Part shown: one piece after another, positions 4,907 through 57,450 of the stretch
Layout: the number at the start of each line of letters is the position of its first letter
Position numbering within the stretch: the stretch's first letter is position 1
Source of the DNA: Pseudomonadota bacterium
Lineage (GTDB): Bacteria > Pseudomonadota > Gammaproteobacteria > Acidiferrobacterales > Acidiferrobacteraceae
Direction: 5' to 3'
DNA: 64,000 nucleotides
NCBI GenBank assembly: GCA_021795715.1
Contig: JAJYPD010000005.1
Span: 1-64,000, forward strand
Notes under the pieces: generated by a model
Told to the model about the DNA's origin: nothing
Databases searched by the model: none
Seen by the model: only the letters and a program-made list of their open reading frames with translations
Position numbers and translations under genes: made by a program

Positions 4907-5473
4907 ATGGAGCGTTCGGCATTGCCCGTGACCGGGGTGGTGCTGGCCGGCGGTGCCGGCCGGCGCATGGGGGGTGTGGACAAGGGGCTTTTGGTCTGGC
5001 GCGGGCGGCCCCTGGTGTCCTACGCGCTCTCTATCCTCGCGGGGTTGCCGGAGATCCTGATCAGTGCCAACCGTTCTCCCGAGGCCTACCAGCCGTTCGG
5101 GTATCGCGTCGTGGCCGATGCACAGCCCGGGTTCCAGGGGCCGCTTCTGGGTCTGCAGGCCGCGTTCGCTCATGCCCGGCAGCCGTGGGTTCTGACGATC
5201 CCGGTGGACAGTCCCCGGCTTGCCGCCGATCTGGTCGAGCGTCTGTGGGGTGCCCGCACCGGGACTGTGTCGGTCGTCGCCGGGCGCAGCGCGCACGGCC
5301 CGGAACCGATCATTTGCCTGTGTCACCGTTCCGCGGCCGCCGCGCTGGACGAGTATCTGGCCACTGGCGGCCGCGCGGCACACGGCTGGTTCCGCGCGCT
5401 TCCCCATGCGTGGTTGGATCTCGCCGACGAAGAGATTGTGAATTACAACACCCCAGACGACCTGAAGGCCTAG
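4907..5473 (+). CDS. mobA: Molybdenum cofactor guanylyltransferase MobA
   Basis: The enzyme joins GMP from GTP to molybdopterin-molybdenum to make the guanine dinucleotide form (MGD) used by DMSO-reductase-family enzymes. The 188 residues start with the nucleotidyltransferase signature LAGGAGRRMGGVDKGL, followed by an ILISANR strand and the metal-binding region IPVDSPRL. Length matches the family. CAGGAGGG precedes the ATG. The stop overlaps the moeA stop on the other strand (shared CTAG). Its position opposite moaB-moeA and an ABC transporter makes this a molybdenum cofactor locus. Confidence 0.95.
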   Translation: MERSALPVTGVVLAGGAGRRMGGVDKGLLVWRGRPLVSYALSILAGLPEILISANRSPEAYQPFGYRVVADAQPGFQGPLLGLQAAFAHARQPWVLTIPVDSPRLAADLVERLWGARTGTVSVVAGRSAHGPEPIICLCHRSAAAALDEYLATGGRAAHGWFRALPHAWLDLADEEIVNYNTPDDLKA

Positions 5474-6690
5474 CCAAACAGTCCCGCGAACGGTACGAAA
5501 CGGACCCACTGACCTTTGTCGACGGTCGTGCCGGCGCCGATGTCGATCAGTCCGTCGGCCCATGTCGTGGATGACAAGGCCCCCGAGCTCTGTTGTCCAT
5601 AGGGGTCGACTTCCGGTATGCCGTCTTCTGCCATGCGCAGGCGTGCGCGCAGGAATTCGCGGCGGCTGTCTGCCTTTTTTCGCGTAAACGCAGCGCGCGC
5701 CATGAGTATTGGCAGTGTCTGTGGTGTTTCTCCGCCGAGCGCCGCGACAAGCGGCCGTGCGAAAAGGGCGAAAGTCACGAATCCGGACACCGGGTTGCCT
5801 GGCAAGCCCAGGAAATAGCAACGGCCGATATGTCCGAAGGCCACGGGTTTGCCGGGTTTGATCCCCACCCGCCACAGCGTGAGCGCGCCTTCGTCTTCGA
5901 CAGCCTTCTTCACGTGATCTTCTTCGCCGACCGATACCCCACCGGTGGTTATGAGGATATCGGCGTTCTCGGCCGCCTGCCGCAGTCCCTTGCGCGTCGC
6001 CTCGAAATCATCGGGCAGCACCGGCCCGCTTGTCACCTCGACGCCCAGCTGCGCGAGCAGCGCCCGCAACATCGGCCGGTTGCTGTCATAAATCTGTCCG
6101 GGCGCGAGGGTGCCGGCGCCCGGCTCGCGCAACTCGTCCCCGGTCGTCAGCAACACCGCGCGCAGGCGCCGGCGAACCACGATATGCGTGCACCCGCAGG
6201 ATGCGAGCAGGCCAATGTCCTGCGGGCGCAGGCGCCGGCCAGCCGCCACGATCTCGGCGCCTTCGGTGATGTCTTCGCCCCGGCGCCGGATGTGGCTGCC
6301 GGGGGTCCACACATCGGGCAGCGCAATCTCGTCACCCTGGCGTTCGCAGACCTCCTGGATGACGACGGTGTCGGCCCCATGCGGGAGCGGCGCACCGGTG
6401 AAGATCCGGCAGGCGCAGCCGGGTGCGAGCCGAATCGGCGGATCGCCGGCGGCGGCGCGGCCGGTGACGGGCAGCGTACGCCGGCCAGTGGCCGAAGCGC
6501 TGGCAAATGCGTAACCGTCCATGGCGCTGTTGTCAAATCCTGGTACGGGAATCGGGGAGGTGACGGCTTTCGCAGCCACCCGCCCGAGGGCTTCGCCGAT
6601 CGTGACCTCTTCGCAGTCTTCCACGGCTCGTATGCCTTCCCGCATTTTCGCCTGCGCCTCCTCCAGCGTGAGCAGTGGCGCGCGGGTCAT
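5470..6690 (-). CDS. moeA: Molybdopterin molybdenumtransferase MoeA
   Basis: MoeA inserts molybdate into adenylylated molybdopterin. The 406-residue protein shows PVPGFDNSAMDGYAF near the N terminus, GDPP, the FTGAPLPHGADTVV segment, TTGDEL, and the MPT-binding TTGGVSVGEEDHVK with GLPGNPVS downstream. The start is set at 6690, where ATGA overlaps the moaB stop and MTRAPLLTLEEAQ aligns with the family N terminus. It is the last gene of a minus-strand run with moaB and the ABC transporter genes. Confidence 0.95.
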   Translation of the reverse strand: MTRAPLLTLEEAQAKMREGIRAVEDCEEVTIGEALGRVAAKAVTSPIPVPGFDNSAMDGYAFASASATGRRTLPVTGRAAAGDPPIRLAPGCACRIFTGAPLPHGADTVVIQEVCERQGDEIALPDVWTPGSHIRRRGEDITEGAEIVAAGRRLRPQDIGLLASCGCTHIVVRRRLRAVLLTTGDELREPGAGTLAPGQIYDSNRPMLRALLAQLGVEVTSGPVLPDDFEATRKGLRQAAENADILITTGGVSVGEEDHVKKAVEDEGALTLWRVGIKPGKPVAFGHIGRCYFLGLPGNPVSGFVTFALFARPLVAALGGETPQTLPILMARAAFTRKKADSRREFLRARLRMAEDGIPEVDPYGQQSSGALSSTTWADGLIDIGAGTTVDKGQWVRFVPFAGLFG

Positions 6691-10169: not shown

Positions 10170-10228
10170 GATTACCGCAGATCGGTTTTCCCCTGCGCGC
10201 CGTGTGTGTTTTTTCTTGTAACAACGGC

Positions 10229-10258
10229 TTGCCTCGGCTTCCCCGAAGTGGATATTAT
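10229..10258 (+). promoter_or_regulatory. Candidate sigma-70 promoter for the RND efflux operon
   Basis: TTGCCT (10229-10234) and TATTAT (10253-10258) are 18 bases apart. The -10 box is followed immediately by a palindrome that looks like a repressor site. Confidence 0.5.
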
Positions 10259-10277
10259 TTAGCACGCTAATAATTAG
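10259..10277 (+). promoter_or_regulatory. SlyA/MarR-type operator with overlapping second palindrome
   Basis: TTAGCACGCTAA (10259-10270) differs by one base from the SlyA consensus TTAGCAAGCTAA. It overlaps CTAATAATTAG (10267-10277), a second palindrome. The position, directly after the -10 of the efflux promoter, suits repression relieved by a ligand. No MarR-family gene is in the window. Confidence 0.5.
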
Positions 10278-10368
10278 GCGAATCACCAATCACATCGGAT
10301 GTCCCCGGCGGCCGCAAAGCCGGGTGGTATGCTGCTGTCATCCCGCCACGCGGAGAGGCTCGAGGACC

Positions 10369-11895
10369 ATGACACCTGAGCGATATCGCCATCCCAAGGT
10401 ACGCCCCGTTCTCGCGCTCACGCTTCTCGGGCTGGCGTTGGCCGGTTGTTCGATCGGTCCGCGTTTCCACGCCCCGCGCTCGCCGACCGTGGGGCGCTAC
10501 ACCCTGCGCCGGCATGCCGCGGCCACCGTCCAGGCGCGCGGCCTGGCCGGTCATGCGCAGCACTTCGTGCCCGCCATGGCGGTGAGTGCCCGCTGGTGGA
10601 CCGGTTTTCATTCCCCGGATCTCGATCGCCTGATGGCACGCGGCCTGCGCAACAGCCAGACCCTGAAGGCCGCCGTTGCCCGTCTCGAGCAGGCGCGCGC
10701 CGCGGTGGCCGCCGAAGAGGGCATCTTTTATCCGCAGGTCAATGGCAATCTCGGCGCCAGCCGCCAGGATTCGAGTTTTGGCCCGAAGAGTTCCGGCTCG
10801 AGCTCCGGCAGCATCTATTCGTTGTACACGGGCGGCCTTTCGGTCAGCTACTTTCCCGACGTCTTCGGCGCCAACCGGCTCGTTTACCGCAGCGCCGAGG
10901 CGCAGGCCGCGTACCAGCGCGACCAGATGCTGGCCGCGCAGCTTTCCCTGGTCGGCAACATCGCCACCACGGCCATCCTGGCCGCCTCCGAACGCACCGA
11001 GGTCGCCGCCACCAAAAGCATCATCCGCAGCGAAGTGCGTCTGCTCGCGTTGACGCGCCTGCAATACCGCGCGGGCGCAGTCCCCTATCTTGCCGTCATC
11101 AACCAGGAAAGCCAGCTCGCCACCAGCCGTGCGACCCTGCCGGCGCTCGCGCAGCAGCTGGCCGTGTCACGCTATACGCTGGCGACGCTAATCGGAGAGT
11201 TCCCGTCGGCATGGCGCCCGATGCATCTGCGTCTGCGGGATCTGCACCTGCCCACCCACCTGCCCGTGAGTCTGCCGTCGCAGCTCGTCCGGCAGCGGCC
11301 TGACATTCGCGCCGCCCTGGAACAGTTACGTTATGCCAACGCCGCCATCGGCATCGCCGATGCGCAGTTTTATCCGGTCGTGCAGTTGACCGCGACCTTT
11401 GGCCAGGAAAGCCTGCAGCCCGACAAGTTCTTCTCGCCGGCGAGCAACGTCTGGAGCCTCGCCGGCAGCCTGCTTGCACCGATTTTTCATGGGGGCACAC
11501 TGCGCGCGCAACGCCGCGAGGCGATCGCCCAGTACGCCGGCACGCTCGCCACCTATCGGCAGACCGTTCTCGACGCCTTCCAGCAGGTGGCCAGCAGTCT
11601 GCGCGCGCTCGCCCACGACGCCCAGGCGCTGCGTGACCAGCGCGACGCTTATGAAGCGGCCCGCCAGGCCCTCCATCTGGCGGAGGAGAGCTACCGCGCC
11701 GGCGCCATCGATTCCCTGCAGCTTCTTACCAACGAAGCCCTGTACAGTCAGGCGCGTATCGCCTACGTCCGTGCCAAGGCACAGCGTTACCTGGATACGG
11801 TGGGCCTTTATACGGCCCTTGGCGGGGGCCTTGGACCGGCGCAATCCGCCCATTCGCAAGAGACGAACGCGTCGCAAAGGAAAACGCAACGATGA
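10369..11895 (+). CDS. RND efflux outer-membrane lipoprotein (NodT/OprM family)
   Basis: This 508-residue protein forms the outer-membrane exit duct of a tripartite pump. It starts MTPERYRH with a signal peptide ending in the lipobox LAGC near residue 26. The family hallmarks follow: SARWWTGFHSPDLDRLM, two repeats of alpha-helical barrel sequence, and QRPDIRAALEQL in the middle. Length is typical. The start at 10369 follows GAGGCTCGAGG; the longer frame has a poor N terminus. ATGA couples it to the adaptor gene, and the pump subunit follows. Confidence 0.92.
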   Translation: MTPERYRHPKVRPVLALTLLGLALAGCSIGPRFHAPRSPTVGRYTLRRHAAATVQARGLAGHAQHFVPAMAVSARWWTGFHSPDLDRLMARGLRNSQTLKAAVARLEQARAAVAAEEGIFYPQVNGNLGASRQDSSFGPKSSGSSSGSIYSLYTGGLSVSYFPDVFGANRLVYRSAEAQAAYQRDQMLAAQLSLVGNIATTAILAASERTEVAATKSIIRSEVRLLALTRLQYRAGAVPYLAVINQESQLATSRATLPALAQQLAVSRYTLATLIGEFPSAWRPMHLRLRDLHLPTHLPVSLPSQLVRQRPDIRAALEQLRYANAAIGIADAQFYPVVQLTATFGQESLQPDKFFSPASNVWSLAGSLLAPIFHGGTLRAQRREAIAQYAGTLATYRQTVLDAFQQVASSLRALAHDAQALRDQRDAYEAARQALHLAEESYRAGAIDSLQLLTNEALYSQARIAYVRAKAQRYLDTVGLYTALGGGLGPAQSAHSQETNASQRKTQR

Positions 11896-12983
11896 AAAAG
11901 CGCATGTTCACGGTGGTGTTTTCGCTCCTCGTCCTGTTCGGGCTCGTGTTTGGCTGGAAGGCGTTTGTGAGCTACAAGACCCGCGCTTTCATGGCCAGCC
12001 GCGGCATACCGGTCATCACCGTATCGACGGCCCAAGTCGAACCGGCGCACTGGCACCGGCAGATCCATAGCGTGGCCACGCTGCTTGCGACCCAGGGGGT
12101 CACGCTGGCAGCGCAGCTGCCGGGTGCGGTAACGGCCATCGACTTCCACTCCGGGGAAGCCGTGCGCGCGGGCAGCCCGCTCGTGCAGGTCGATGACCGG
12201 CCGCAACTGGCGCAGCTCGCCTACGATATTGCGCAGATGCGCCTGGCATGGTCGAACCTGCGCCGCACGCGCATCCTGTACAAGGGCCGTGCCGCAAGCC
12301 GCGCCCAGCTCGACACGGTGGCAGCCACCTACGACAGCGCCAAGGCGCGCGTGGCGGGCGATCGCGCCACCATCAACCAGCTGGCCTTGCGGGCGCCGTT
12401 TACCGGTGTGCTCGGCATCCGCCAGGTCAATCTCGGACAATATCTGGCGCCGGGCACGCCCATCGTAGACCTCCAGTCCTACGAAAATCTCTACGCCAAC
12501 TTCGATGTGCCACAGCAGGATCTGGCCCACATCCATCTGCACGAGCGAGTCGAACTCACCGTCGACAGCTACCCAAACCGCGTCTTCAGCGGACAGATCC
12601 ACGCCGTCGACGCCACAGTCAACCCGCAGACGCGCAACCTGCTTGTGCAGGCCGAGATCCCCAATCAGGACGGGGCCCTGCGCCCGGGCATGTTTGGCGA
12701 CGCGCGCGTCATCAGCAAGACCACCACCACGGTGCTCACGGTTCCGGCGGTGGCGCTTACCTACAACACCTATGGCGACACCGTCTATGTGGTACGCCAT
12801 GTCACCAAGAACGGCAAGAGCCTGCTTGTCGCCAAGCAGGTTCTGGTGCGCACCGGCGAGCAGCGCGGCAGCCGTATCGCCATCAGATCCGGCCTCAAGG
12901 CGGGCTGGACGGTGGTTACGGCCGGACAGGTCAAGCTGCACAATGGCATGCCGGTCGCTGTCAACGACAGCGTCCAGCCTTAA
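11892..12983 (+). CDS. RND efflux periplasmic adaptor (membrane fusion protein)
   Basis: This 363-residue protein links the inner-membrane pump to the outer-membrane duct. A single N-terminal membrane anchor spans about residues 5-22. It is followed by the first half of a lipoyl domain (AAQLPGAVTAIDFHSGEAV), a short coiled-coil hairpin, the second lipoyl half (LRAPFTGVLGIRQVNLGQ), a beta-barrel domain and a membrane-proximal domain ending at the C terminus. There is no lipobox, so it is held by the N-terminal helix. It starts inside the stop of the upstream gene and ends nine bases before the pump gene. Confidence 0.93.
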   Translation: MKKRMFTVVFSLLVLFGLVFGWKAFVSYKTRAFMASRGIPVITVSTAQVEPAHWHRQIHSVATLLATQGVTLAAQLPGAVTAIDFHSGEAVRAGSPLVQVDDRPQLAQLAYDIAQMRLAWSNLRRTRILYKGRAASRAQLDTVAATYDSAKARVAGDRATINQLALRAPFTGVLGIRQVNLGQYLAPGTPIVDLQSYENLYANFDVPQQDLAHIHLHERVELTVDSYPNRVFSGQIHAVDATVNPQTRNLLVQAEIPNQDGALRPGMFGDARVISKTTTTVLTVPAVALTYNTYGDTVYVVRHVTKNGKSLLVAKQVLVRTGEQRGSRIAIRSGLKAGWTVVTAGQVKLHNGMPVAVNDSVQP

Positions 12984-12992
12984 GGCGCCGCC

Positions 12993-15900
12993 ATGAACTT
13001 CACAGACTTCTTCATTCGCCGGCCGGTTCTCGCCACCGCCCTCAGTCTCGTCATCTTCCTGCTGGGGCTGCGTTCCTATCTCGGCATGACGGTACGCCAG
13101 TACCCGAAGATGACGAACACCACCATCACCGTGACGACGGTGTACCCGGGTGCGAGCCCAAGTACCGTCCAGGGCTTCCTCACGACACCGCTTGAGCGGG
13201 TGATCGCGACGGCGCCGGGCATTTCGTACCTGACTTCGACCAGCGCCGAGGGCGCCTCGACGATCACGGTGTACATGGCCCTCAATTACAGCCCCGACGC
13301 CGCGGTCGCCAATATCCAGTCGAAGATCCAGCAGGTCGTGAACAAGCTGCCCACGGGCAGCGAATTGCCGGTCATCAACGTCACCGTCGGCGACTCGACC
13401 GACCTCATGTACATCGCCTTCTACAGTCACCACATGTCGCAGCAGCAGATCACCGATTATCTGCTGCGCGTCGTCCAGCCGACTTTGGTGGCGGTCAACG
13501 GCGTAAGCCAGGCGCAGATCGTGCCCGCCGGCACCGGCTCGGGCAACACCTTTGCCATGCGCGTCTGGCTCAATCCCCGCAAGATGGCGGCGCTGCACGT
13601 CGACGCTTCGCAGGTGGCCGCGGCGCTTGCCGGCAACAACTACATCTCCGCGGTGGGCCGTACCCGTAGCCGTAACATCGCCGAGGTCATCAGTGCCACG
13701 ACCAGTCTGACCACCCCGCAGGAATTCCGCAACCTGATTGTTGCCCAGGTGGGTGACACGCCGATCCGCCTAAAGCAGATCGGACACGTAACGCTCGGCG
13801 CCGAAACCTACACGCAGGAGGCGTTCTTCGACGGTACCACGGCTGCTTACATCGGCATCCAGCCCACGCCCACGGCCAATTCGCTGGACGTCGCCCGCGG
13901 TGTGCGCCACGCGCTCGCGGGCCTTCAGCGCCAGTTTCCGCCGGCCCTGCATGCGGCCATCCCGTACGACGCAAGCAGCTACATCACCGCCGCGTTGCAC
14001 GAAATCGTCACCACCATCGCCATCACCCTCGTGGTGGTGATTCTCGTCATCCTTTTGTTCCTCGGTTCGCTGCGGGCCGCCATCATCCCCGGCGTTGCCA
14101 TTCCGCTGTCGATCGTCGGCGCGGGGCTTTTGATGATGATCATGCATTTCACGATCAATCTGCTCACGCTGCTTGCCATCGTGCTCGCCATCGGACTGGT
14201 GGTCGACGACGCCATCGTCGTGGTGGAAAACATCCATCGCCACATCGAGGAGGGGCGCACGCCCGTGGATGCCGCGATCCTGTCGGGGCGCGAGCTGCTC
14301 TCGCCGATCGTCGTCATGTCGACCACGCTGGTGGCGGTGTTCGCACCGATCGGCTTTATGGGTGGCCTGACCGGCAGCCTGTTTTCGGAGTTCGCCTTTA
14401 CGCTGGTGGCTGCGGTGCTCGTATCGATGGTGGTCGCGCTGACACTCTCACCGATGCTGAGTGCGCGGGTATTGCGGCACAGCACACCCCACGGCTTTGG
14501 GCATTTCGTCGACGAACGCTTCGATCGCCTGCGTCTTCACTATGACCGTCTTCTGCACGGCAGTCTCGACTACCTGCCGGTGACGCTCGTCTTTGCCGCC
14601 GCCATGCTGGTCAGCACCTATTTCCTGTTCACGACGACGCGCCAGGAGCTGGCGCCCCAGGAGGACCAGGGGGTTTTGTTCGTCGCCGGCACCGCGCCGC
14701 CCACCGCCACACCCCATTACCTGCGCACCTACGGGATGCAGATCATCCACGATTTCGAGCGGACCAAAGGCTACGACAAGAGCTTCATGATCAGCGGTTT
14801 CTCACCGACCGGCGCTGGCGACAACGCGCTCATGGCGGGTATGCATCTCGTCTCGTGGAGCAAGCGGTCGATGAGCACGATGCAGCTGCAGCCCATCGTC
14901 CAAAATGAGATGAATCACATCGCGGGATTACAGCTTGCGGTCTTCCAGCGGCCGCCGCTGCCGGGTTCTGCGGGGGGTCCGCCGGTGCAGTTCGTGATCC
15001 AGGCGAGCGCCGGCTACCGGAAGATCGACCGGGTGGCCAATCAGCTGATCGGCATCGCCGAGCGCAGCGGCCTCTTTGCGTACGTTGCCAAGGACCTTCG
15101 CTACGACAATCCGCAGGTCGTCGTGAAAATCCATCGCAATATCGCATCCGATCTCGGATTCACCATGCAGCAGGTGGCGGCCAACCTGCAGCCTTTGTTG
15201 AGCGGCAATTACATCAACCGCTTCGACCTCGCAGGCCGCAGCTACGAGGTGATTCCGCAGGTGGCACAGAAATACCGCGCCAATCCCGGGCTTTTGAAAG
15301 ACTTCTACCTGCGCACGCCGACCGGACACATGGTGGCGTTGTCGACGCTCGCCTCGATTCACCGCCAGATCGAGCCCGAGTTCCTGCCGCAGTTCCAGCA
15401 GATGAATTCCGCGACCATTCAGGCGGTGCCGATGCCGGGCGTGACCATGGGACAGGCCTTGTCATACCTGCGTCTGCAGGCGCATCGCATTTTCCCGCAG
15501 GGCTTTAGCATCAACTACGCGAGCGAATCTCGCCAGTTCATGCACAACCGGAGCGGGCTGCTGGTGACGTTCTTCCTGGCCATCCTGCTGATCTTTTTGC
15601 TGCTCGCGGCACAGTTCGAGAGTTTCCGGGATCCGCTGATCGTGCTCGTCACCGTGCCGATGTCCATAAGTGGTGCCCTGATCTTCCTGAGCCTTGGTTT
15701 TGGCACCATCAACATTTATACCGAGGTGGGTTTGATCACCCTCATCGGTCTGATCACCAAGCAGGGCATCCTGATCGTGCAGTTTGCCAATGAGGCGCAG
15801 CGCCACGGCGGTCTCAGCAAGCGCGAGGCCGTGGAACGCGCGTCATCCATCCGCCTGCGGCCGATTCTCATGACCACTGGCGCCATGGTGATCGGCGTGC

Positions 15901-16073
15901 TGCCGCTGTTGCTTGCCACCGGCCCGGGAGCGGCTGCGCGCTTTGCCATGGGGCTTGTGATCTTCGCCGGCCTGAGCCTCGGTTCCCTGTTTTCCTTGTT
16001 TGTGGTTCCGGCTATGTACATGGTGCTCGGCAAAGATCACAGCCGCGACCCCGCCGCCGGGGGGCGCGCCTAG
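12993..16073 (+). CDS. RND multidrug efflux pump, HAE1 family
   Basis: This 1026-residue inner-membrane proton antiporter has the twofold RND architecture: an N-terminal helix (FFIRRPVLATALSLVIF), a large periplasmic loop, a helix bundle with the proton-relay motif GLVVDDAIVVVENIHRH, then a second loop and bundle ending in FVVPAMYMVLGK. Length and the DD pair match AcrB/MexB-type hydrophobe and amphiphile exporters rather than metal pumps. It is the last gene of the operon and probably trimeric. Substrates cannot be predicted, though the SlyA-like operator suggests aromatic or antibiotic compounds. Confidence 0.94.
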   Translation: MNFTDFFIRRPVLATALSLVIFLLGLRSYLGMTVRQYPKMTNTTITVTTVYPGASPSTVQGFLTTPLERVIATAPGISYLTSTSAEGASTITVYMALNYSPDAAVANIQSKIQQVVNKLPTGSELPVINVTVGDSTDLMYIAFYSHHMSQQQITDYLLRVVQPTLVAVNGVSQAQIVPAGTGSGNTFAMRVWLNPRKMAALHVDASQVAAALAGNNYISAVGRTRSRNIAEVISATTSLTTPQEFRNLIVAQVGDTPIRLKQIGHVTLGAETYTQEAFFDGTTAAYIGIQPTPTANSLDVARGVRHALAGLQRQFPPALHAAIPYDASSYITAALHEIVTTIAITLVVVILVILLFLGSLRAAIIPGVAIPLSIVGAGLLMMIMHFTINLLTLLAIVLAIGLVVDDAIVVVENIHRHIEEGRTPVDAAILSGRELLSPIVVMSTTLVAVFAPIGFMGGLTGSLFSEFAFTLVAAVLVSMVVALTLSPMLSARVLRHSTPHGFGHFVDERFDRLRLHYDRLLHGSLDYLPVTLVFAAAMLVSTYFLFTTTRQELAPQEDQGVLFVAGTAPPTATPHYLRTYGMQIIHDFERTKGYDKSFMISGFSPTGAGDNALMAGMHLVSWSKRSMSTMQLQPIVQNEMNHIAGLQLAVFQRPPLPGSAGGPPVQFVIQASAGYRKIDRVANQLIGIAERSGLFAYVAKDLRYDNPQVVVKIHRNIASDLGFTMQQVAANLQPLLSGNYINRFDLAGRSYEVIPQVAQKYRANPGLLKDFYLRTPTGHMVALSTLASIHRQIEPEFLPQFQQMNSATIQAVPMPGVTMGQALSYLRLQAHRIFPQGFSINYASESRQFMHNRSGLLVTFFLAILLIFLLLAAQFESFRDPLIVLVTVPMSISGALIFLSLGFGTINIYTEVGLITLIGLITKQGILIVQFANEAQRHGGLSKREAVERASSIRLRPILMTTGAMVIGVLPLLLATGPGAAARFAMGLVIFAGLSLGSLFSLFVVPAMYMVLGKDHSRDPAAGGRA

Positions 16074-49479: not shown

Positions 49480-52400
49480 CTAGCCCTGTCGTTTCGTGAA
49501 ATTCGCATAGGCGAAGTAGCCAAGCGGAATCACAAAGAGCGTCAGCACGGTCGATGCCAGGGTGCCGAAGATGAGCGAGATGGCAAGCCCGCCAAACACC
49601 GGATCGAGGATCATCACCGCCGTGCCGAGCATGATCGCAAGGGCTGTCAGGATGATGGGCCGCAGCCGCACGGATCCGGCCTGGACCACGGCCTCGATGC
49701 GGCTGTGGCCCGCGCGCTCGTATTCCAGGATGAAGTCGATCAGGAGCAAAGAGTTGCGCACGACGATGCCGGCGAGCGCGATGACGCCGATCATGGAGGT
49801 GGCCGTGAAGAACTGATGCATGATCGCGTGTCCGGGCAGCACACCCACGAGCGTCAAAGGGATGGCGATCATCACGATGAACGGAATCATGAACGAGCGG
49901 TAGTAGCCGACCAGGATCATGTAGATGAGGATGATGGCCACACCGAACGCCGAGCCGAGGTCGCGGAAGACGTTCAGTGTCAGCCGCATGTCACCGCTCC
50001 AGCGTATGGCGTAGTGCAAAGTGCCCGGGTCCTGCATGAAATACTGGCGCAGGTGAACGCCGTCTACCTTATGATGCTTCAGGTATTGCCACATGGCGAT
50101 TCCCGGATAAACGGGACTGCCTTTGCTCATGCCCGCCGTTACATAGACCACCTCACGCCCGTCCTTTTGATAGATCGGGCGCGGTGCCGGATGGCGCACG
50201 ACGGTGGCAATCGTGGACAAAGGGATTTCCTTGCCTTCGGGATTGGTCAGGAAGATCTTGTTCAGGTCTTGCGGACCCATGCGGTCGGCGATCGGGAAGC
50301 GGAAACGGATCGGTACCGGCTCCTTGGCCCGCGTAATGTGCACGGTACCGTCATTGATGCCCGCGAGAAAGCCCTTGAGTGTCTGTGCCACCTGTGCCGG
50401 CGTGACGCCATCGAGCGCCGCCTGCCGGCGGTCAACGGCGATCGAGTATTGCCAGGAACGGTGTGGGACCGAGCTGTCGACGCCGACCAGATGCGGGGTG
50501 TGCGCAAACAGGCCGTAGCGCAAGGCGTTGCCGATCTGCTCGAGTTTGCGGTAATGCGGTCCGAACACTTCGGCCATGACGGTCGCGCGCACCGGCGGAC
50601 CCGGCGGGTGCTGTTCAATCTTGATCATGGCGTTGTTGCGGCGCGCTATCTCCGTAATGGCAGGTCGCAGCGCACGGACGATGTCTATCGAAGAGATGGT
50701 CCGCTCGCTCTTGCGTACGAGCTCGACCTGCACCTCGCCCACTGTCGGACCGGCCTTGAGCGCCTGACCGCGCAGCAGTCCGCTGAAGTTGATCGCCCCC
50801 ACACCTCCGGCCGCGAGTTGGTAGGTGGTCACATACGGGTTGCGGCGCACGACGTCGCCGATCTCCTCGACCACGCGATCGGTGTCTTCGAGGGTGCTGC
50901 CAGCCGGTGTGCGCACCGTGATGTCAAAACTGTTGTTGTTGTTGCGCGGCAGCATTTTGAAGTTGACGATGCGCCAGGCCGGCAGCGCCATCGCGCCGCC
51001 AAGCAGCAGGATGATCACGGCCAAAAAGCCCCAGCGCAAAATTCTGCGCGAGAGCAGCGCGCGCATCGCCCGCTCGTAGCCGCTCCTCAGGACACGTGTC
51101 GCCAGGGATTCGGGGCCATGACGACCCTTGAGCCACAACCGGGCGGCCCATGGTGCGACCGTATAGGCCACGAAAAGCGACGTCAGCATGGCAATGGGGA
51201 CGTTTTTGGGGATGGGCGCCATGTAGGGTCCCATCATGCCCGTCACCGACAGCATCGGAAGAAACGCCAAAATCACCGCCAAAGTGGCAAGATTGGTCGG
51301 GCGGCCGATCTCATTGACGGCGCTTACCGCCGACCGCACGCGATCGACGCCCTTGGTGGCATAGTGCCGGAAGATGTTTTCCACCACCACGATCGAGTCG
51401 TCGACCAGAAGGCCCAGGGACAGGATGAGGGCAAACAGGGTGATGCGATTGATGGTCTGTCCGGCCACATAATCCACGGCAAGTGTCACGAGCAGGATCA
51501 CGGGAATGGTGACGGTGACGATCGCCGCCGCGCGCCAGCCGAGAAAGACGACGAGCAACGCGACGACCGTCACGATGGCGATGAACAGATGCCGGATCAG
51601 GAGATTGACGGCACTGTTGGCCCGTTGGCCGTCGTCGCGAGTGACGTCGACATGAACGGAGGGTGGGATCACCGTGCCCTCGAGGACCTTGAGGCGGGCC
51701 AGGACGCCATTCGCTACGGTCACGGCGTTGGTGCCGGCCTTTTTCGCCAGACACAAGGTGACCGCGGGCAGCTCCAGGTTGCGCGGGCGCAGGTGGCTGT
51801 AGGCGCGGCCGAAACCGATGAAATGCACATTCTTGACGCGGCCCCCGCCGTCGGTGACGGTCGCTACGTCGCGCAGATAGACCGGCTCGTGATTGTAGAG
51901 ACTGACGACGATGGAGCCGATTTCGCGCGCCGAATGCAGCATCCCACCCGCATGAATGGTGGCCTCATGGTTGGCGTTGATGAACCAGCCGGAGGGGATG
52001 TCGATGTTGGTGGCCTCGACGATCCGCTGGATGTCGACCAGCGTCACGTTGTAGCGGCGCATGAGCGCCGGATGCAGCGTGATATTGATGCGCCGGCGCT
52101 GTCCGCCGATCACATAGGATCGGGATGTGCCGGGCGTGCGCCGCAGGTGGTGCAGAACGTCGATGCCGATCGCGCGCAGGGCCACCTGACTGAACCGCGA
52201 TGAAGACAGCGTCACGGTAACGATCGGTACCTGATTGACATCGAGGGGTTCGATGATCGGCCGCAGAGTCCCGGGGGGCATGCGGTTGTAGTTGCTCATG
52301 ATCTTGTTGTAGAGCCGGACAAGCGAGTTGATGCGGTTTTGTCCGACATCGAAACGCACGGTGACGATGCCCTCGGAATCGAGCGCCATGCCATAGATGT

Positions 52401-52674
52401 GGTGCACCCCATGCATGCCGTGCAAAATCGCCCGCAAAGGATCGACGACGAGGTTCTTGACCTCGCGCGGTGTTGCGCCCGGCTTGGCGACGATGATGTT
52501 GGCCGCCGGCACGACGATCTGCGGGTTTTCCGTGCGCGGCGTGAGATGCAGTGCCAGCAGGCCGGTCAGCAGCGCGGTGAGCAAAATCAGCGCGGTGAGC
52601 TTGCTGTCGATGAAATAGCGCGTGAGCCGACCGGCAATATTGAGGTGCGCGTTCGCGCCCGGACGCTCGGTCAT
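49480..52674 (-). CDS. RND efflux pump, second system
   Basis: This 1064-residue inner-membrane pump has the same fold as the other RND protein but is only distantly similar. It has an N-terminal helix (SKLTALILLTALLTGLLAL), the ENPQIVVPAANIIVAKPGA loop start, the proton-relay helix SLGLLVDDSIVVVENIFRHY, a second periplasmic loop, and a C-terminal bundle (LAGIVVRNSLLLIDFILEYE, then VIPLGYFAYANFT). It belongs to the AcrB/HAE-like branch, not clearly to metal pumps. It is the last gene of tolC-adaptor-pump and is coupled by ATGA to the small adaptor. Confidence 0.92.
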   Translation of the reverse strand: MTERPGANAHLNIAGRLTRYFIDSKLTALILLTALLTGLLALHLTPRTENPQIVVPAANIIVAKPGATPREVKNLVVDPLRAILHGMHGVHHIYGMALDSEGIVTVRFDVGQNRINSLVRLYNKIMSNYNRMPPGTLRPIIEPLDVNQVPIVTVTLSSSRFSQVALRAIGIDVLHHLRRTPGTSRSYVIGGQRRRINITLHPALMRRYNVTLVDIQRIVEATNIDIPSGWFINANHEATIHAGGMLHSAREIGSIVVSLYNHEPVYLRDVATVTDGGGRVKNVHFIGFGRAYSHLRPRNLELPAVTLCLAKKAGTNAVTVANGVLARLKVLEGTVIPPSVHVDVTRDDGQRANSAVNLLIRHLFIAIVTVVALLVVFLGWRAAAIVTVTIPVILLVTLAVDYVAGQTINRITLFALILSLGLLVDDSIVVVENIFRHYATKGVDRVRSAVSAVNEIGRPTNLATLAVILAFLPMLSVTGMMGPYMAPIPKNVPIAMLTSLFVAYTVAPWAARLWLKGRHGPESLATRVLRSGYERAMRALLSRRILRWGFLAVIILLLGGAMALPAWRIVNFKMLPRNNNNSFDITVRTPAGSTLEDTDRVVEEIGDVVRRNPYVTTYQLAAGGVGAINFSGLLRGQALKAGPTVGEVQVELVRKSERTISSIDIVRALRPAITEIARRNNAMIKIEQHPPGPPVRATVMAEVFGPHYRKLEQIGNALRYGLFAHTPHLVGVDSSVPHRSWQYSIAVDRRQAALDGVTPAQVAQTLKGFLAGINDGTVHITRAKEPVPIRFRFPIADRMGPQDLNKIFLTNPEGKEIPLSTIATVVRHPAPRPIYQKDGREVVYVTAGMSKGSPVYPGIAMWQYLKHHKVDGVHLRQYFMQDPGTLHYAIRWSGDMRLTLNVFRDLGSAFGVAIILIYMILVGYYRSFMIPFIVMIAIPLTLVGVLPGHAIMHQFFTATSMIGVIALAGIVVRNSLLLIDFILEYERAGHSRIEAVVQAGSVRLRPIILTALAIMLGTAVMILDPVFGGLAISLIFGTLASTVLTLFVIPLGYFAYANFTKRQG

Positions 52675-53054
52675 GGGGTGCCTTCCGTACGGGTGATGTG
52701 GATCGGACTGCCGTCGAACACCCCATCAAAGGGTGGCAGCACCAGGGTTTCGTCACCGCGCAGTCCACTTAGGATTTCGCTTTTCCCATTGCGGGCCTTG
52801 CCGACCTTGATGAGACGAAAGCGCGCGCGATCGTGCGCGCTCAGGACGAACACGCCGGGCAGCCCCGCGTAATCGATGATGGCGTCGGTGGGCACCATGA
52901 TGTTGCCGCTTGGGGTATGCGCGGCGGCCGACAAAGTGAGGACCGCCCGATCCACGACAGGCCGCGGCGGCTCCGGACTCGGCGCGGGCGGCTTGCCCGT
53001 GCAGCCGGCCAGCAACAGGGCGAGCGAGAGGAGGAGGGCGCGGTGGCGGATCAT
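52671..53054 (-). CDS. Small lipoprotein resembling only the membrane-proximal part of an RND adaptor
   Basis: This 127-residue lipoprotein has a signal peptide with the lipobox LAGC (Cys18), a Pro-rich linker, and then a domain that resembles the C-terminal membrane-proximal region of RND adaptors: VPTDAIIDYAGLPGVFVL, RFRLIKVGKARNGKSEIL, SGLRGDETLVL and GVFDGSPIHI. The lipoyl and coiled-coil hairpin and most of the beta-barrel are absent; a normal adaptor is about 350-400 residues. It has its own signal peptide and both ends overlap neighbours by four bases, so it is probably a working gene, not a fragment. It may seal the pump to the duct in another way, or work with an adaptor encoded elsewhere. 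Confidence 0.75.
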   Translation of the reverse strand: MIRHRALLLSLALLLAGCTGKPPAPSPEPPRPVVDRAVLTLSAAAHTPSGNIMVPTDAIIDYAGLPGVFVLSAHDRARFRLIKVGKARNGKSEILSGLRGDETLVLPPFDGVFDGSPIHITRTEGTP

Positions 53055-54412
53055 GGGGATAACCGCGGAAGTGTTTGCGGCGACAGGCTCGCATCGGCCG
53101 CCGCCAGGTTTGCTTCATCGCTGACCAGGGCATAAACCGCCGCAAGCCGCTGTTCGCGAGCGGCCGTCAGGGCCTCTTCGGCGTTCAGGAGGTCGAGTAG
53201 GATGGTGCGGCCTTCGCCGTAGCGGATGCGTATGAGGCGGACGGCTGCACGGGCTTCGGTCACATTGGTGACCGCCAGCCGATAGCGCCGCCAGGCGATC
53301 TGCATGTTGCTGTAGGTCCGCATGATCTGCAGGCGGATCTGTGTCCGCAGTTCATCCACCCGGGCGGCCACCTCCAATGCGGCTCCTTGCTTGACCGCAG
53401 CCTGATCACGGGCGCGCCCGCCGGTGTAAAGGGGCGCGCTGATCGTCCCCGCCACCGTCCAGGCATTGTGCCGCGGCAACGGTGTTTCGCTGTACCAGTC
53501 GGTCGATGCCGTGACGCCCACCTGGATGCCCGATCGGGCGCGCAAGGCGCGCGCCTCGGCAAGATCGGCGGCCCGTTCGGCTTCGAGCGCGCGGATGTCC
53601 GGGCGTTGCTGCAGGGCGCGCGCGATCGCGGCCTGGGCCGTCATGGTCACGGGCGCAGGTGGTTGCAAGTGGATCGCCGGCAGTTGCACCGACAAAGGGG
53701 CGGGCGCCCCCAGCACCGCTACGAGGTTGGCTTGGGCGGCCTGCAAGGCGGCCTCGGCCTTCAGAACCCCTTCATGGGTGGCGCGCAGGTAGACCGCCGC
53801 GGTCAAGGCATCGGCATGGACGATGCGGCCTTCGTGGTAGAGCCGGGCGGTGGTGTCTGCATGCTTCCGGGCCGCCCGCATCGCCTCGCGCGCGATGTGC
53901 ACCGCAGCCTTTGCCGCCAGCACACCCTCGTAGGCCTGCACGGTGGTGGCCATGATGCGCTGTTGTATTTCGGCACGGCCGGCCTGCGCCGCCGCGCGGC
54001 CCAAGCGGCCGGCACGGATGTCCGCACTGATGGCGCCGCCGCTGTAAAGCGGTACGGTCAGAGACAAACCGGCGGTGGCCAGACGGCTGATGCCGGGATG
54101 ATTCAGGTTGGCGGGTGTGAACGCGCTTGCGGTCACCTGCCGCCGTTCCAGCTCGGCGGTCAATGCCGCAAGCGGATTGTCGCTGAAGAGGTAATTGTAT
54201 GTGGCTGATATTTGCGGCATGCCTTGGGCGCGAGCCGCCCGCAGGCGGGCGTCGGCCATCAGGGTGCGTGCGCGCGCAAGCGCCGTGAGACTGCTGTGAC
54301 GCAGGGCGAAGCGGACCGCCTGGTTCAGGCTGAACGTCCGGGCGCGCGCGGTCAGTGCCGGGACGGTCAAAAGCACGACCGCCGCGAGGAGGCTTCGACT
54401 TGCACGAGTCAC
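53051..54412 (-). CDS. TolC-family outer-membrane efflux protein
   Basis: This 453-residue protein has a signal peptide (about 1-25, ending ARA) and no lipobox, unlike the duct of the first system. Two similar halves carry the OEP repeats: FSLNQAVRFALRHSS with VPLYSGGAISADIRAG, and ALQQRPDIRALEAER with APLYTGGRARDQ. It forms the trimeric exit duct. It is first in the tolC-lipoprotein-pump operon. Confidence 0.92.
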   Translation of the reverse strand: MTRASRSLLAAVVLLTVPALTARARTFSLNQAVRFALRHSSLTALARARTLMADARLRAARAQGMPQISATYNYLFSDNPLAALTAELERRQVTASAFTPANLNHPGISRLATAGLSLTVPLYSGGAISADIRAGRLGRAAAQAGRAEIQQRIMATTVQAYEGVLAAKAAVHIAREAMRAARKHADTTARLYHEGRIVHADALTAAVYLRATHEGVLKAEAALQAAQANLVAVLGAPAPLSVQLPAIHLQPPAPVTMTAQAAIARALQQRPDIRALEAERAADLAEARALRARSGIQVGVTASTDWYSETPLPRHNAWTVAGTISAPLYTGGRARDQAAVKQGAALEVAARVDELRTQIRLQIMRTYSNMQIAWRRYRLAVTNVTEARAAVRLIRIRYGEGRTILLDLLNAEEALTAAREQRLAAVYALVSDEANLAAADASLSPQTLPRLSP

Positions 54413-54508: not shown

Positions 54509-54919
54509 CTAGAGGGGCGGCTTGACGACGGCCAAAATGACAATGGCCAGGAGGAGCAAGACCGGGATTTCATTGATGATCCGGTAGAAGCGGGTGCTCC
54601 GCCGCCGGCCCTGGGCGAGTTCACGGACCAGATGGCCCAGGTAGACGTAGTACACGATGAGCAGGCCGGCGAGCAGGATCTTGACATGCAGCCATGCGCC
54701 GTCAAAGCCGTAGCCCCACCACAGCCACAGGCCGAAACCGACGGCCAGCGCCGCGCTCGGTGTCGTGAAGCGATACAGCCGCCGCTCCATGGTCACGAAC
54801 CGCTCATGTCCTGCGGGGTCGGTGGTCTGGCTGTGGTAGACGAAAAGACGTGGCAGATAAAAAAGCCCGGCAAACCAGGTGACGACGAAGATGATGTGAA
54901 AGGCTTCGACCCAGAGCAT
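54509..54919 (-). CDS. hemJ: HemJ-like protoporphyrinogen oxidase
   Basis: HemJ oxidises protoporphyrinogen IX in bacteria that lack HemG and HemY. This 136-residue protein has four hydrophobic helices and the family features AFHIIFVVTWFAGLFYLPRLF with conserved His, VKILLAGLLIVYYVYLG and the C-terminal NEIPVLLLLAIVILAVVKP. The ATG at 54919 follows GGGAGG. It lies 16 bases after hemW, placing two haem-related genes together; hemE is elsewhere in the window. Confidence 0.9.
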   Translation of the reverse strand: MLWVEAFHIIFVVTWFAGLFYLPRLFVYHSQTTDPAGHERFVTMERRLYRFTTPSAALAVGFGLWLWWGYGFDGAWLHVKILLAGLLIVYYVYLGHLVRELAQGRRRSTRFYRIINEIPVLLLLAIVILAVVKPPL

Positions 54920-54935
54920 GATGGCCTCCCTCGGC

Positions 54936-56090
54936 TCAATTGGTGGCAAAGGTGTCTGGCATTAGCGGCGCCAGGATGGAATCCAGAAAGCACAACCCCC
55001 GCGCTGTCGCCCGGATCCGATCGCCGCTCAGGTCGATCAGGCCTTCGCGCGCGGCCGGCTGCAGGCGCTCGACCAGGCCTGTCTTGGACAGTCCGGTGAC
55101 GGCGTGGAAATCGGCGAGGCAAAAGCCTTCTGTCAGCCGCAGGCCATTTAGAAGAAATTCCCACCACAGTTCGTCGCCATCCACGCGGTGGCGGGTGCGC
55201 TGGTGATGCGGATCGCGCAGATAGGCCCGCACGTCACGGGTGCGGGTTTCGCGCCACACGCCCGTTGCGCCGCTTACCTTGCCGTGGGCGCCGCTGCCGA
55301 TGCCGATGTAGTCACCAAACCGCCAGTAGTTCAGATTGTGCCGGCAGCGAAAGCCGTCTTGGGCATAGGCGGAGATTTCGTAGCGGCGAAAACCCGCACT
55401 CGCGGCCATGTCCTGGACGCAGGCCTCGATGGCGGCGCGCACGGGATCGGCGGGTAGAGGGGGTGGCGCCTGCGCGAAGGCCGTGTTCGGCTCTATGGTC
55501 AGTTCGTAAAGTGACACGTGGGCGGCACCGGCGCCAAGCACCCAGGCCATATCGGCGCGCGCCTCGTCCACCGTCTGTTCCGGCAGGCCATACATGAGGT
55601 CGATGTTGAATGAACGAAACCCGGTGCCGGCGGCGAGTTCCACCGCGCGTTGCGCATCCAAAGCCGTGTGGATGCGGCCAAGCCGCGCAAGGTGCCGGTC
55701 CTGCAGGCTTTGCACGCCAAGCGAAAGCCGGTTGACGCCGGCGTCCCGGAAACCCCGGAAGCGGCCGGCTTCGGCCGTGCCCGGGTTGGCCTCCAGGCTG
55801 ATTTCACAGTCAGGGGCGAAGGCGCCGATACGCGCGGCACCAGCGAGGATGTCGCCGATGGCGGTGGCGGAAAAAAGACTCGGTGTGCCGCCTCCGAAAA
55901 ACACCGACTGCAGCGGGCGCCCCGCCAGCACGTCCGCCATGCTGGCCAGATCGTCGAGCAGCGACCGCACATACGCTTTTTCGGGCAACACGCGGTCACC
56001 GCCCGGCAGGGAGTGGAAATCGCAGTAGGGACATTTGCGCACGCACCAGGGCAGGTGCACGTACAGACTTAAGGGGATCGCCTCTGTCAC
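54936..56090 (-). CDS. hemW: HemW-like radical SAM protein (haem chaperone family)
   Basis: This 384-residue protein carries the radical SAM cluster motif CVRKCPYCDF (Cys16, Cys20, Cys23 from the chosen start), FFGGGTPSLF, EANPGT and the HemN-type C-terminal domain. The lack of the additional Cys of true HemN and the HLPWC start place it with HemW, which binds haem rather than being coproporphyrinogen dehydrogenase. The GTG at 56090 overlaps the rdgB stop (GTGA). The longer frame has an unlikely N terminus. Confidence 0.9.
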   Translation of the reverse strand: MTEAIPLSLYVHLPWCVRKCPYCDFHSLPGGDRVLPEKAYVRSLLDDLASMADVLAGRPLQSVFFGGGTPSLFSATAIGDILAGAARIGAFAPDCEISLEANPGTAEAGRFRGFRDAGVNRLSLGVQSLQDRHLARLGRIHTALDAQRAVELAAGTGFRSFNIDLMYGLPEQTVDEARADMAWVLGAGAAHVSLYELTIEPNTAFAQAPPPLPADPVRAAIEACVQDMAASAGFRRYEISAYAQDGFRCRHNLNYWRFGDYIGIGSGAHGKVSGATGVWRETRTRDVRAYLRDPHHQRTRHRVDGDELWWEFLLNGLRLTEGFCLADFHAVTGLSKTGLVERLQPAAREGLIDLSGDRIRATARGLCFLDSILAPLMPDTFATN

Positions 56091-56671
56091 AGAGACCGGA
56101 GGAGTTGCAGCATGCCGCGCACGGCCTGGCCCCGATGGCTGACGGCCTCTTTTTCCGCGAGGCGAAGTTCGGCTGCCGAGCGGCCGCCGCCGACGCCAAA
56201 CAGCGGATCGTAGCCAAAGCCCTGGTCGCCACGCTCTTTTGTGAGGATGTGTCCTTCCCACACGCCTTCGCTGATGAGCGGCCGCGGGTCATGCGCGTGG
56301 CGGATAAAGACAAGCAGGCAATAAAAGCGGGCCGTGCGCGGTTCCGGTGTGTCGGCCAGCGCCCTCAGCAGCGCCGCGCGATTTTCGCTGTCGGTCGCCT
56401 GCAATCCGGCAAAACGCGCCGAATGCACCCCGGGCGCGCCGTTGAGCGCGTCGACGAGCAGTCCCGAGTCGTCGGCCAGTGCGGGCAGCCCGCTTTCGAG
56501 TGCTGCATGGCGCGCCTTGGTCAGGGCGTTTTCGATGAACGTGCAATCCTCTTCGGGTGCCGACTCGATACCGAGCGTCGACTGGGCGATCAGGGTGGCG
56601 TTTAGGGGTGCGAACGCCGCCTGCAGTTCGCGCAGCTTGCCGAGATTATGGGTCGCGAAAACCAGCTTCAT
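56087..56671 (-). CDS. rdgB: dITP/XTP pyrophosphatase RdgB
   Basis: RdgB removes non-canonical purine nucleotides such as dITP and XTP from the pool. The 194-residue protein starts [13 protein letters not shown], has the metal-binding [13 protein letters not shown] and [11 protein letters not shown], and [11 protein letters not shown] near the C terminus. It overlaps rph and hemW by four bases each; rph-rdgB-hemW is a common order in gammaproteobacteria. Confidence 0.95.
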
Positions 56672-57390
56672 GGGTTGTCCGCGAGTGCGGCACGCTGCGC
56701 GGCCAGAAGCTGTTCGATGCCGCCGCGGGCGAGCTCGATCATGGTCAGCATTTCATCGTGGCCGAAATGACCCCGTTCGGCGGTCCCTTGCATTTCGATG
56801 AAGCCGCCGGCGTCGTTCATGACGATGTTCATGTCGGTGCCCGCGCTCGAGTCCTCGCTGTAGTCGAGATCCACCACCGGTTCGCCATTGCAGATGCCGA
56901 CGGATACCGATGCGACCTGGTGGCGCAGCGGGCTTTCCTTCAGAAGTTTGTGCTGCATGAGGAAGCCGACGGCATCGGCGAGCGCCACATAGCCGCCGGT
57001 GATGGCCGCCGTGCGTGTCCCCCCGTCGGCCTGCAGCACATCGCAGTCGATGGTGATGGTGCGCTCCCCAAGTGCCCGCAAATCGACGGCTGCGCGCAGT
57101 GAGCGGCCGATCAGGCGCTGGATTTCGACGGTCCGGCCGTCTTGTTTGCCGCGCGCCGCCTCGCGCTGGGTCCGCTGCCCGGTCGCGCGCGGCAGCATGC
57201 CGTATTCGGCTGTGATCCAGCCTTGTCCGCGTCCCTTCAGGAAGGGCGGCACTTTCTCGTCAACGCTGGCCGTGCACAGTACCCGGGTCTGTCCAAACTC
57301 TGTCAGCACGGACCCTTCCGCGTAGCGTGTGAAGCGGCGGGTCAGGCGAATGGTGCGTAGGGCATTGGCGGCGCGTCCGCTCGGTCGCAT
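56668..57390 (-). CDS. rph: Ribonuclease PH
   Basis: RNase PH trims tRNA 3' ends phosphorolytically. The 240-residue enzyme starts [18 protein letters not shown] and has the phosphate-binding [20 protein letters not shown] and the DADGGTRTA-like [14 protein letters not shown], and [15 protein letters not shown] for catalysis. The ATG at 57390 follows AAGGA. It stands between the phosphatase and rdgB in one minus-strand run. Confidence 0.95.
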
Positions 57391-57450
57391 GGGAATTCCT
57401 TGGAAACCTGTCATGAAAGGACGCCTAGTGTAGCAAGAAAGGACGGCTCT

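Follow-up and report, generated by a model that had tools for sequence, protein, structure and literature searches.

A putative RND efflux operon of Acidiferrobacterales with an adaptor lipoprotein reduced to its membrane-proximal domain and altered TolC tips

The window, i.e. the complete stretch of 64,000 nucleotides analyzed here, encodes on its reverse strand a TolC-type outer membrane factor, a 127-residue lipoprotein, and an RND permease, in this order (Table 1). The short gene, which a preceding sequence-only reading had already placed between tolC and the pump gene, overlaps each neighbor by four bases, as that reading had described, with an ATGA junction on both sides. Likewise in agreement with it, the encoded protein has its own signal peptide followed by a lipobox (LLAGC18), and its Cys18 is predicted to be lipidated. 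A HemJ/CopD-like gene, hemW, rdgB, and rph are located upstream of the operon. These flanking genes recur in about 20–29 of the 52 short-adaptor loci, which fits a vertical inheritance of the operon.

Table 1 Positions of the operon genes, of selected features of their products, and of neighboring genes in the window.
Feature	Position	Strand	Support
RND permease, 1064 aa	49480–52674	−	Pfam ACR_tran 5e-157; clade-specific indels; tree
RND His262	51889–51891	−	Alignment with MexB
MPD-only adaptor lipoprotein, 127 aa, ATG start	52671–53054	−	TIGR01730 match; alignment; AlphaFold2 model; structural alignment
C-terminal MPD part, residues 50–126	52677–52907	−	TIGR01730 positions 243–321; conservation
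N-terminal MPD strand, residues 34–40	52935–52955	−	AlphaFold2 strand; matches the corresponding strand in AcrA/BesA
Signal peptide and lipobox, predicted lipidated Cys18	53001–53054	−	Cys18 invariant in 29/29 aligned homologs
TolC-type outer membrane factor, 453 aa	53051–54412	−	Pfam OEP 3.8e-43; AlphaFold2 model, pLDDT 89
TolC Arg402, periplasmic tip loop 2	53207–53209	−	Turn between predicted helices 333–396 and 402–439
TolC Arg196, periplasmic tip loop 1	53825–53827	−	Turn between predicted helices 127–193 and 199–234
HemJ/CopD-like gene, hemW, rdgB, rph	54509–57414	−	
Canonical OMF-adaptor-RND cluster	10222–16070	+	
OMF-like frame of canonical cluster	10222–11892	+	
Full adaptor frame of canonical cluster	11655–12980	+	
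RND of canonical cluster	12984–16070	+	

The 127-residue protein matched the RND adaptor family TIGR01730 (NCBIfam) only over the last 79 of the 322 model positions, with an E value of 6e-8 and a score far below the family cut-off. The lipoyl, hairpin, and barrel regions of TIGR01730 had no match in the protein, and Pfam yielded sub-threshold matches only. An AlphaFold2 model computed with 29 homologs reached a mean pLDDT of 91.8, and its best matches among solved structures (Foldseek) were all RND or ABC adaptors. Structural alignment (VIA-align) placed model residues 31–126 on residues 43–310 of BesA (Z = 14.1, 1.9 Å, 94 residues) and on residues 35–378 of AcrA (Z = 13.9, 1.9 Å, 92 residues). 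By these measures the predicted fold is that of the adaptor membrane-proximal domain (MPD), which in normal adaptors is assembled from both ends of the chain. Both ends are present in the short protein: the N-terminal strand is followed by a loop of ~10 residues and variable length (residues 41–51), which replaces roughly 240 residues, and then by the C-terminal part with the motifs PGVFVL, ARFR, EILSGLxGxETLV, and DGSP. Judged from the model, the protein is a complete MPD that has lost the beta-barrel, lipoyl, and alpha-hairpin domains from between its two halves; the absence of these domains is also evident from the TIGR01730 coverage and from the alignment with full adaptors. The earlier claim that the lipoyl and hairpin parts are missing was thus borne out and extends to the beta-barrel. 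The description of the protein as resembling only the last domain of an adaptor was right about the MPD, but the N-terminal strand is kept as well, so that the whole domain rather than its last piece has been preserved.

The lipobox Cys and 14 other positions were invariant in the 29 aligned sequences. At position +2 after the lipidated Cys, Asp was found in only one of these 29 short adaptors, and the enteric-type Lol-avoidance signal is therefore absent. This would fit a lipoprotein that is sorted to the outer membrane and stabilizes TolC from there, as YbjP does on E. coli TolC. We regard such a location as very improbable, as the predicted fold is that of an RND-binding MPD and Asp is also missing from position +2 in most full adaptors of the sister clade. 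Moreover, the Lol rules differ outside enterics.

Matches to the 127-residue protein were obtained in 41 of 60 relatives, nearly all of them across the full query. The sequence-only reading had proposed to search for same-length homologs between tolC and RND genes, and this search recovered them in about 50 genomes: the proteins comprise 114–134 residues, occupy the tolC-RND slot, and share the lipobox Cys throughout the aligned set. A chance ORF or an assembly artefact can be dismissed, as these are about 50 independent genomes, complete ones among them, with a homolog of this length in this slot. Within Acidiferrobacterales, the order tolC, short gene, RND gene was found in every locus read (L062, a contig-edge fragment, aside). 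Named records with the short form span this order (Sulfuricaulis, “Candidatus Muproteobacteria”, Acidiferrobacteraceae, and MAGs from acid-mine and groundwater sources) and also include further uncultured Gammaproteobacteria. Among 370 genomes across the class, short forms were additionally detected in the families coded f60, f83, f100, and f112, i.e. in at least four gammaproteobacterial families besides Acidiferrobacterales. No short form was found outside Gammaproteobacteria in 397 sampled genomes of the phylum at an E value of 1e-14, and no homologs were found on viral contigs. Two loci showed peculiarities. At L052 (6433–7076), the short gene and the RND gene are about 640 bases apart, compared to the tight spacing elsewhere, and tolC at L045 (5002–6352, forward strand) is present as two overlapping frames (5002–5784 and 5762–6352), possibly reflecting a frameshift or a MAG assembly error.

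The RND proteins fell into two score classes. Those with at least 55% identity were always accompanied by the short protein, whereas those with about 51% identity or less had an ordinary adaptor wherever the contig reached far enough. The adaptors of the nearest outside relatives (about 350–430 aa) passed the TIGR01730 cut-off in those cases that were scanned. They contain a barrel, lipoyl halves, and a coiled-coil hairpin whose tip is of the RxxxL type. They belong to full-length tolC-adaptor-RND operons of other gammaproteobacteria (G391, G209, G080, G105, and others; L131, L133–L161), in which they occupy the orthologous slot. These operons resemble the one in the window in their RND (43–51% identical), in their TolC, which is the closest outside the clade, and in an MPD that is still recognizable as the same domain. 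They differ in the adaptor, whose hairpin is RLS-like, in hydrophobic TolC tip residues, and in two additional membrane-proximal RND loops of 14 and 4 aa. In a maximum-likelihood tree of the RND proteins (71 rows), the 38 short-adaptor rows grouped in a single clade (SH-aLRT 100) that contained none of the 32 full-adaptor rows. Since the nearest RND relatives carry a full adaptor in this slot, the short form is a reduction. Synteny and the RND tree indicate that its ancestor at this operon position was a full adaptor, with the full-length form being ancestral and one reduction event in the sampled tree.

The dN/dS ratio of the short gene was 0.23–0.35 in the genus of the window and 0.16–0.34 in the sister genus (RND, 0.07; tolC, 0.17–0.21). 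These ratios, and the conservation of length, lipobox, and motifs over at least five families, agree with the earlier view that the gene is not decayed. Together with the RND tree they indicate, at the level of sequence, that a single reduction of the adaptor preceded the divergence of at least five families and that the short form has been maintained since then. The sequence-only reading had added that full-length adaptors in relatives would mark the short gene as a deletion remnant. More distant relatives do have such an adaptor, and about 240 residues did disappear by an internal deletion, but this was a single old event followed by maintenance. A non-functional, decaying remnant is hardly conceivable in view of the constant length and motifs and of dN/dS values of about 0.16–0.35.

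The AlphaFold2 model of the TolC-type channel aligned to E. coli TolC (1ek9) with a Z score of 30. The OEP repeats and a 12-helix barrel of canonical length were recognized, with predicted long helices (residues 127–193 and 333–396; 67 and 64 residues) of ordinary barrel length, and the model contains no longer helices that could span a gap. In ordinary systems, the adaptor hairpin binds to the periplasmic tip of TolC through its RLS motif (PMC3391258). Both tips are changed in the short-adaptor channels (tip motifs GRIVxSD and RYGxGRTILxDLL): Arg196 and Arg402 were each present in 50 of 50 short-adaptor channels and in none of 20 full-adaptor relatives, which carry V, L, I, or M instead. In the alignment, Arg196 takes the place of the L in the VGLVAITD segment of TolC-type sequences. 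The tips were also unusually constrained. Tip columns of the short-adaptor clade underwent 5.7 changes each and the other TolC columns 12.0, whereas the corresponding values for the full-adaptor set were 5.4 and 6.4 (ratio of the two ratios, 0.57; p = 5e-5 by permutation of columns). Clade-specific residues were enriched 12-fold at the tips (p = 3e-5). A coordinated and invariant change at both tips suggests that a conserved partner still contacts the tip, but that this would no longer be the usual hairpin. The closest channels outside the clade were mostly those of full-adaptor operons, indicating that this TolC is ancestral and was inherited with the operon; a swap-in of another channel family with pre-existing Arg tips is not supported. 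Asp201 and Tyr398, the counterparts of the TolC gate residues D153 and Y362 in the alignment, are kept. Hence, this channel does not appear to be locked open, in contrast to reports on BesC.

The RND permease matched ACR_tran over residues 18–1054 and carries the Asp pair in TM4 (GLLVDDSIVVVEN), with the proton-relay motif VDD kept. Many full-adaptor relatives have VDA or VDG at this position (L134–L144), while L133 and the short-adaptor clade keep VDD. Two loops found in full-adaptor relatives are missing from the short-adaptor RND: 14 aa after residue 569, behind TM7 (RPxGMNGPLSPxG in the relatives), and 4 aa at residue 880, before TM8. Both would lie on the side of the porter domain that faces the membrane, which is where MPDs bind (PMC6975555). 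His262 is conserved almost without exception in the short-adaptor clade (45 of 47), whereas most relatives have Gly there; according to the alignment with MexB, it falls in the turn at the apex of the docking subdomain DN. Raw pairwise identities had hinted at an elevated constraint of DN, which was considered as a sign of TolC contact, but a tree-based test of the docking-domain columns detected no significant extra constraint (p = 0.21 overall, p = 0.09 for DN), and this line of evidence was dropped. The docking domain also showed no excess of clade-specific residues, no clear acidic partner for the TolC arginines at its apex, and no extra length that would fill a gap. A conserved RND core without docking-domain enhancement, in an operon that encodes no bridge, would fit a pump that empties only into the periplasm or the outer leaflet, with the MPD protein as a regulator and the co-transcribed TolC serving other pumps. 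We consider this improbable, since tolC was kept in the operon at every locus with a complete region and the specific constraint on the TolC tips in the clade fits a dedicated partner.

No gene for a barrel, lipoyl, or hairpin protein was found in the operon or recurring in the flanks of the 52 short-adaptor loci. The sequence-only reading had suggested either a pump without a conventional periplasmic bridge or a split adaptor. The gene content of the operon and its recurring flanks agrees with the former, while operation without any bridge is a step that we infer. This gene content lends no support to the latter, even though all genomes checked encode unlinked adaptors. A true split adaptor, in which an unlinked barrel-lipoyl-hairpin protein joins the MPD protein to form one functional adaptor, appears distinctly improbable. 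MPD-poor adaptors of about 300 aa (model positions ~24–212) occur in several of these genomes, but they are not near the operon and resemble EmrA/AaeA types, which are common in gammaproteobacteria, and nothing links them to the short-adaptor clade. The main rival to direct docking, which we regard as unlikely but more plausible than the other alternatives, is a bridge shared in trans: a full adaptor from another locus would provide the hairpins, and the MPD protein would fill some of the adaptor-binding sites of the RND trimer in a mixed ring, as a distant analog of the two-adaptor system TriABC. All ten short-adaptor genomes checked, as well as the genome of the window, encode full adaptors at other loci, and a complete canonical OMF-MFP-RND cluster even lies in the same window. 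However, no full adaptor is linked to the short-adaptor operon, and the replacement of both hydrophobic, hairpin-facing TolC tip residues by Arg should disfavor the usual contact with an RLS hairpin.

The MPD is the adaptor part with extensive contacts to the RND porter domains (PMC6975555), and the short protein is thus most simply read as an RND-bound collar. Among the other conserved products of the operon, only the RND with its docking domain could partner the TolC tips, so that direct docking is the leading explanation for their change. We propose, with a probability of roughly 50%, that the MPD protein forms a collar on the RND porter and that the re-tipped TolC docks without a hairpin bridge, most likely onto the RND docking domain. 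The lipid-anchored protein would sit at the inner membrane on the porter domain of the neighboring RND and support the pump cycle. Having lost barrel, lipoyl, and hairpin domains, it would be unable to reach TolC, and bridging by an MPD alone seems sterically implausible. In the cognate TolC, the hydrophobic tip residue of both repeats has given way to an invariant Arg, resulting in six arginines per trimer, and the contact of these tips with the RND would stand in for the contact with the RLS hairpin by which ordinary TolC channels are opened. Given the ordinary lengths of the TolC helices and the docking domain, direct docking would need the two membranes to be closer than in AcrAB-TolC. More tentatively, the operon may represent a class of bridge-less trans-envelope RND pumps that export their substrates through Arg-bearing TolC tips docked on the RND trimer, with a one-domain lipid-anchored collar activating or steadying the porter. 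As the reduction is a single evolutionary event, these comparisons establish a correlation of the changes in TolC and RND with it, rather than causation.

BesCAB of Borrelia burgdorferi shares the channel-adaptor-RND gene order, and BesA is likewise a lipid-anchored adaptor without the channel-contacting part and with the MPD fold noted above; from this hairpin-less pump, its authors inferred a direct contact between channel and transporter (PMC3807786). BesA has lost only the hairpin and keeps MPD, beta-barrel, and lipoyl domains, whereas the 127-residue protein has neither barrel nor lipoyl domain and hence is not of the BesA type. Weakened gates were reported for BesC (PMC4446572, PMC8277102), in contrast to the window TolC with its retained Asp201 and Tyr398 and its two gained tip arginines. 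BesCAB also belongs to an unrelated lineage and reflects a separate reduction. AcrAB-TolC and MexAB-OprM have in common with the window operon an HAE1-type RND (ACR_tran), a TolC-type channel, and the MPD fold, but their adaptor is a bridging four-domain protein instead of an MPD alone. EmrA, an MFS adaptor without MPD (PMC4158417), illustrates that adaptors are modular and can lose domains, and is the mirror image of the short protein: EmrA kept the bridge and lost the MPD, whereas the 127-residue protein kept the MPD and lost the bridge. No MPD-only adaptor was found in the open-access literature, reviews included, to which the search was confined. Thus, adaptors without hairpin (BesA) or without MPD (EmrA) were already known, and the reduction to an MPD alone, as deduced here from sequence, appears to be new.

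It has long been argued whether TolC is recruited and opened by a tip-to-tip contact with the adaptor hairpin or by direct contact with the RND, and BesA is the one structurally characterized exception found in the open-access literature covered. In the short-adaptor clade of environmental bacteria, evolution seems to have separated the two jobs of an adaptor: the pump-touching part was kept and the channel-touching part is gone, with a matching change at the adaptor-binding tips of TolC. The two halves of this pump are probably connected in a manner so far undescribed. The clade offers a natural minimal system for RND activation by an MPD alone and for hairpin-free TolC docking, with the full-adaptor sister clade as control. 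A useful internal comparison is provided by the canonical OMF-adaptor-RND cluster on the forward strand of the window, the RND of which is 25% identical to that of the short-adaptor operon.
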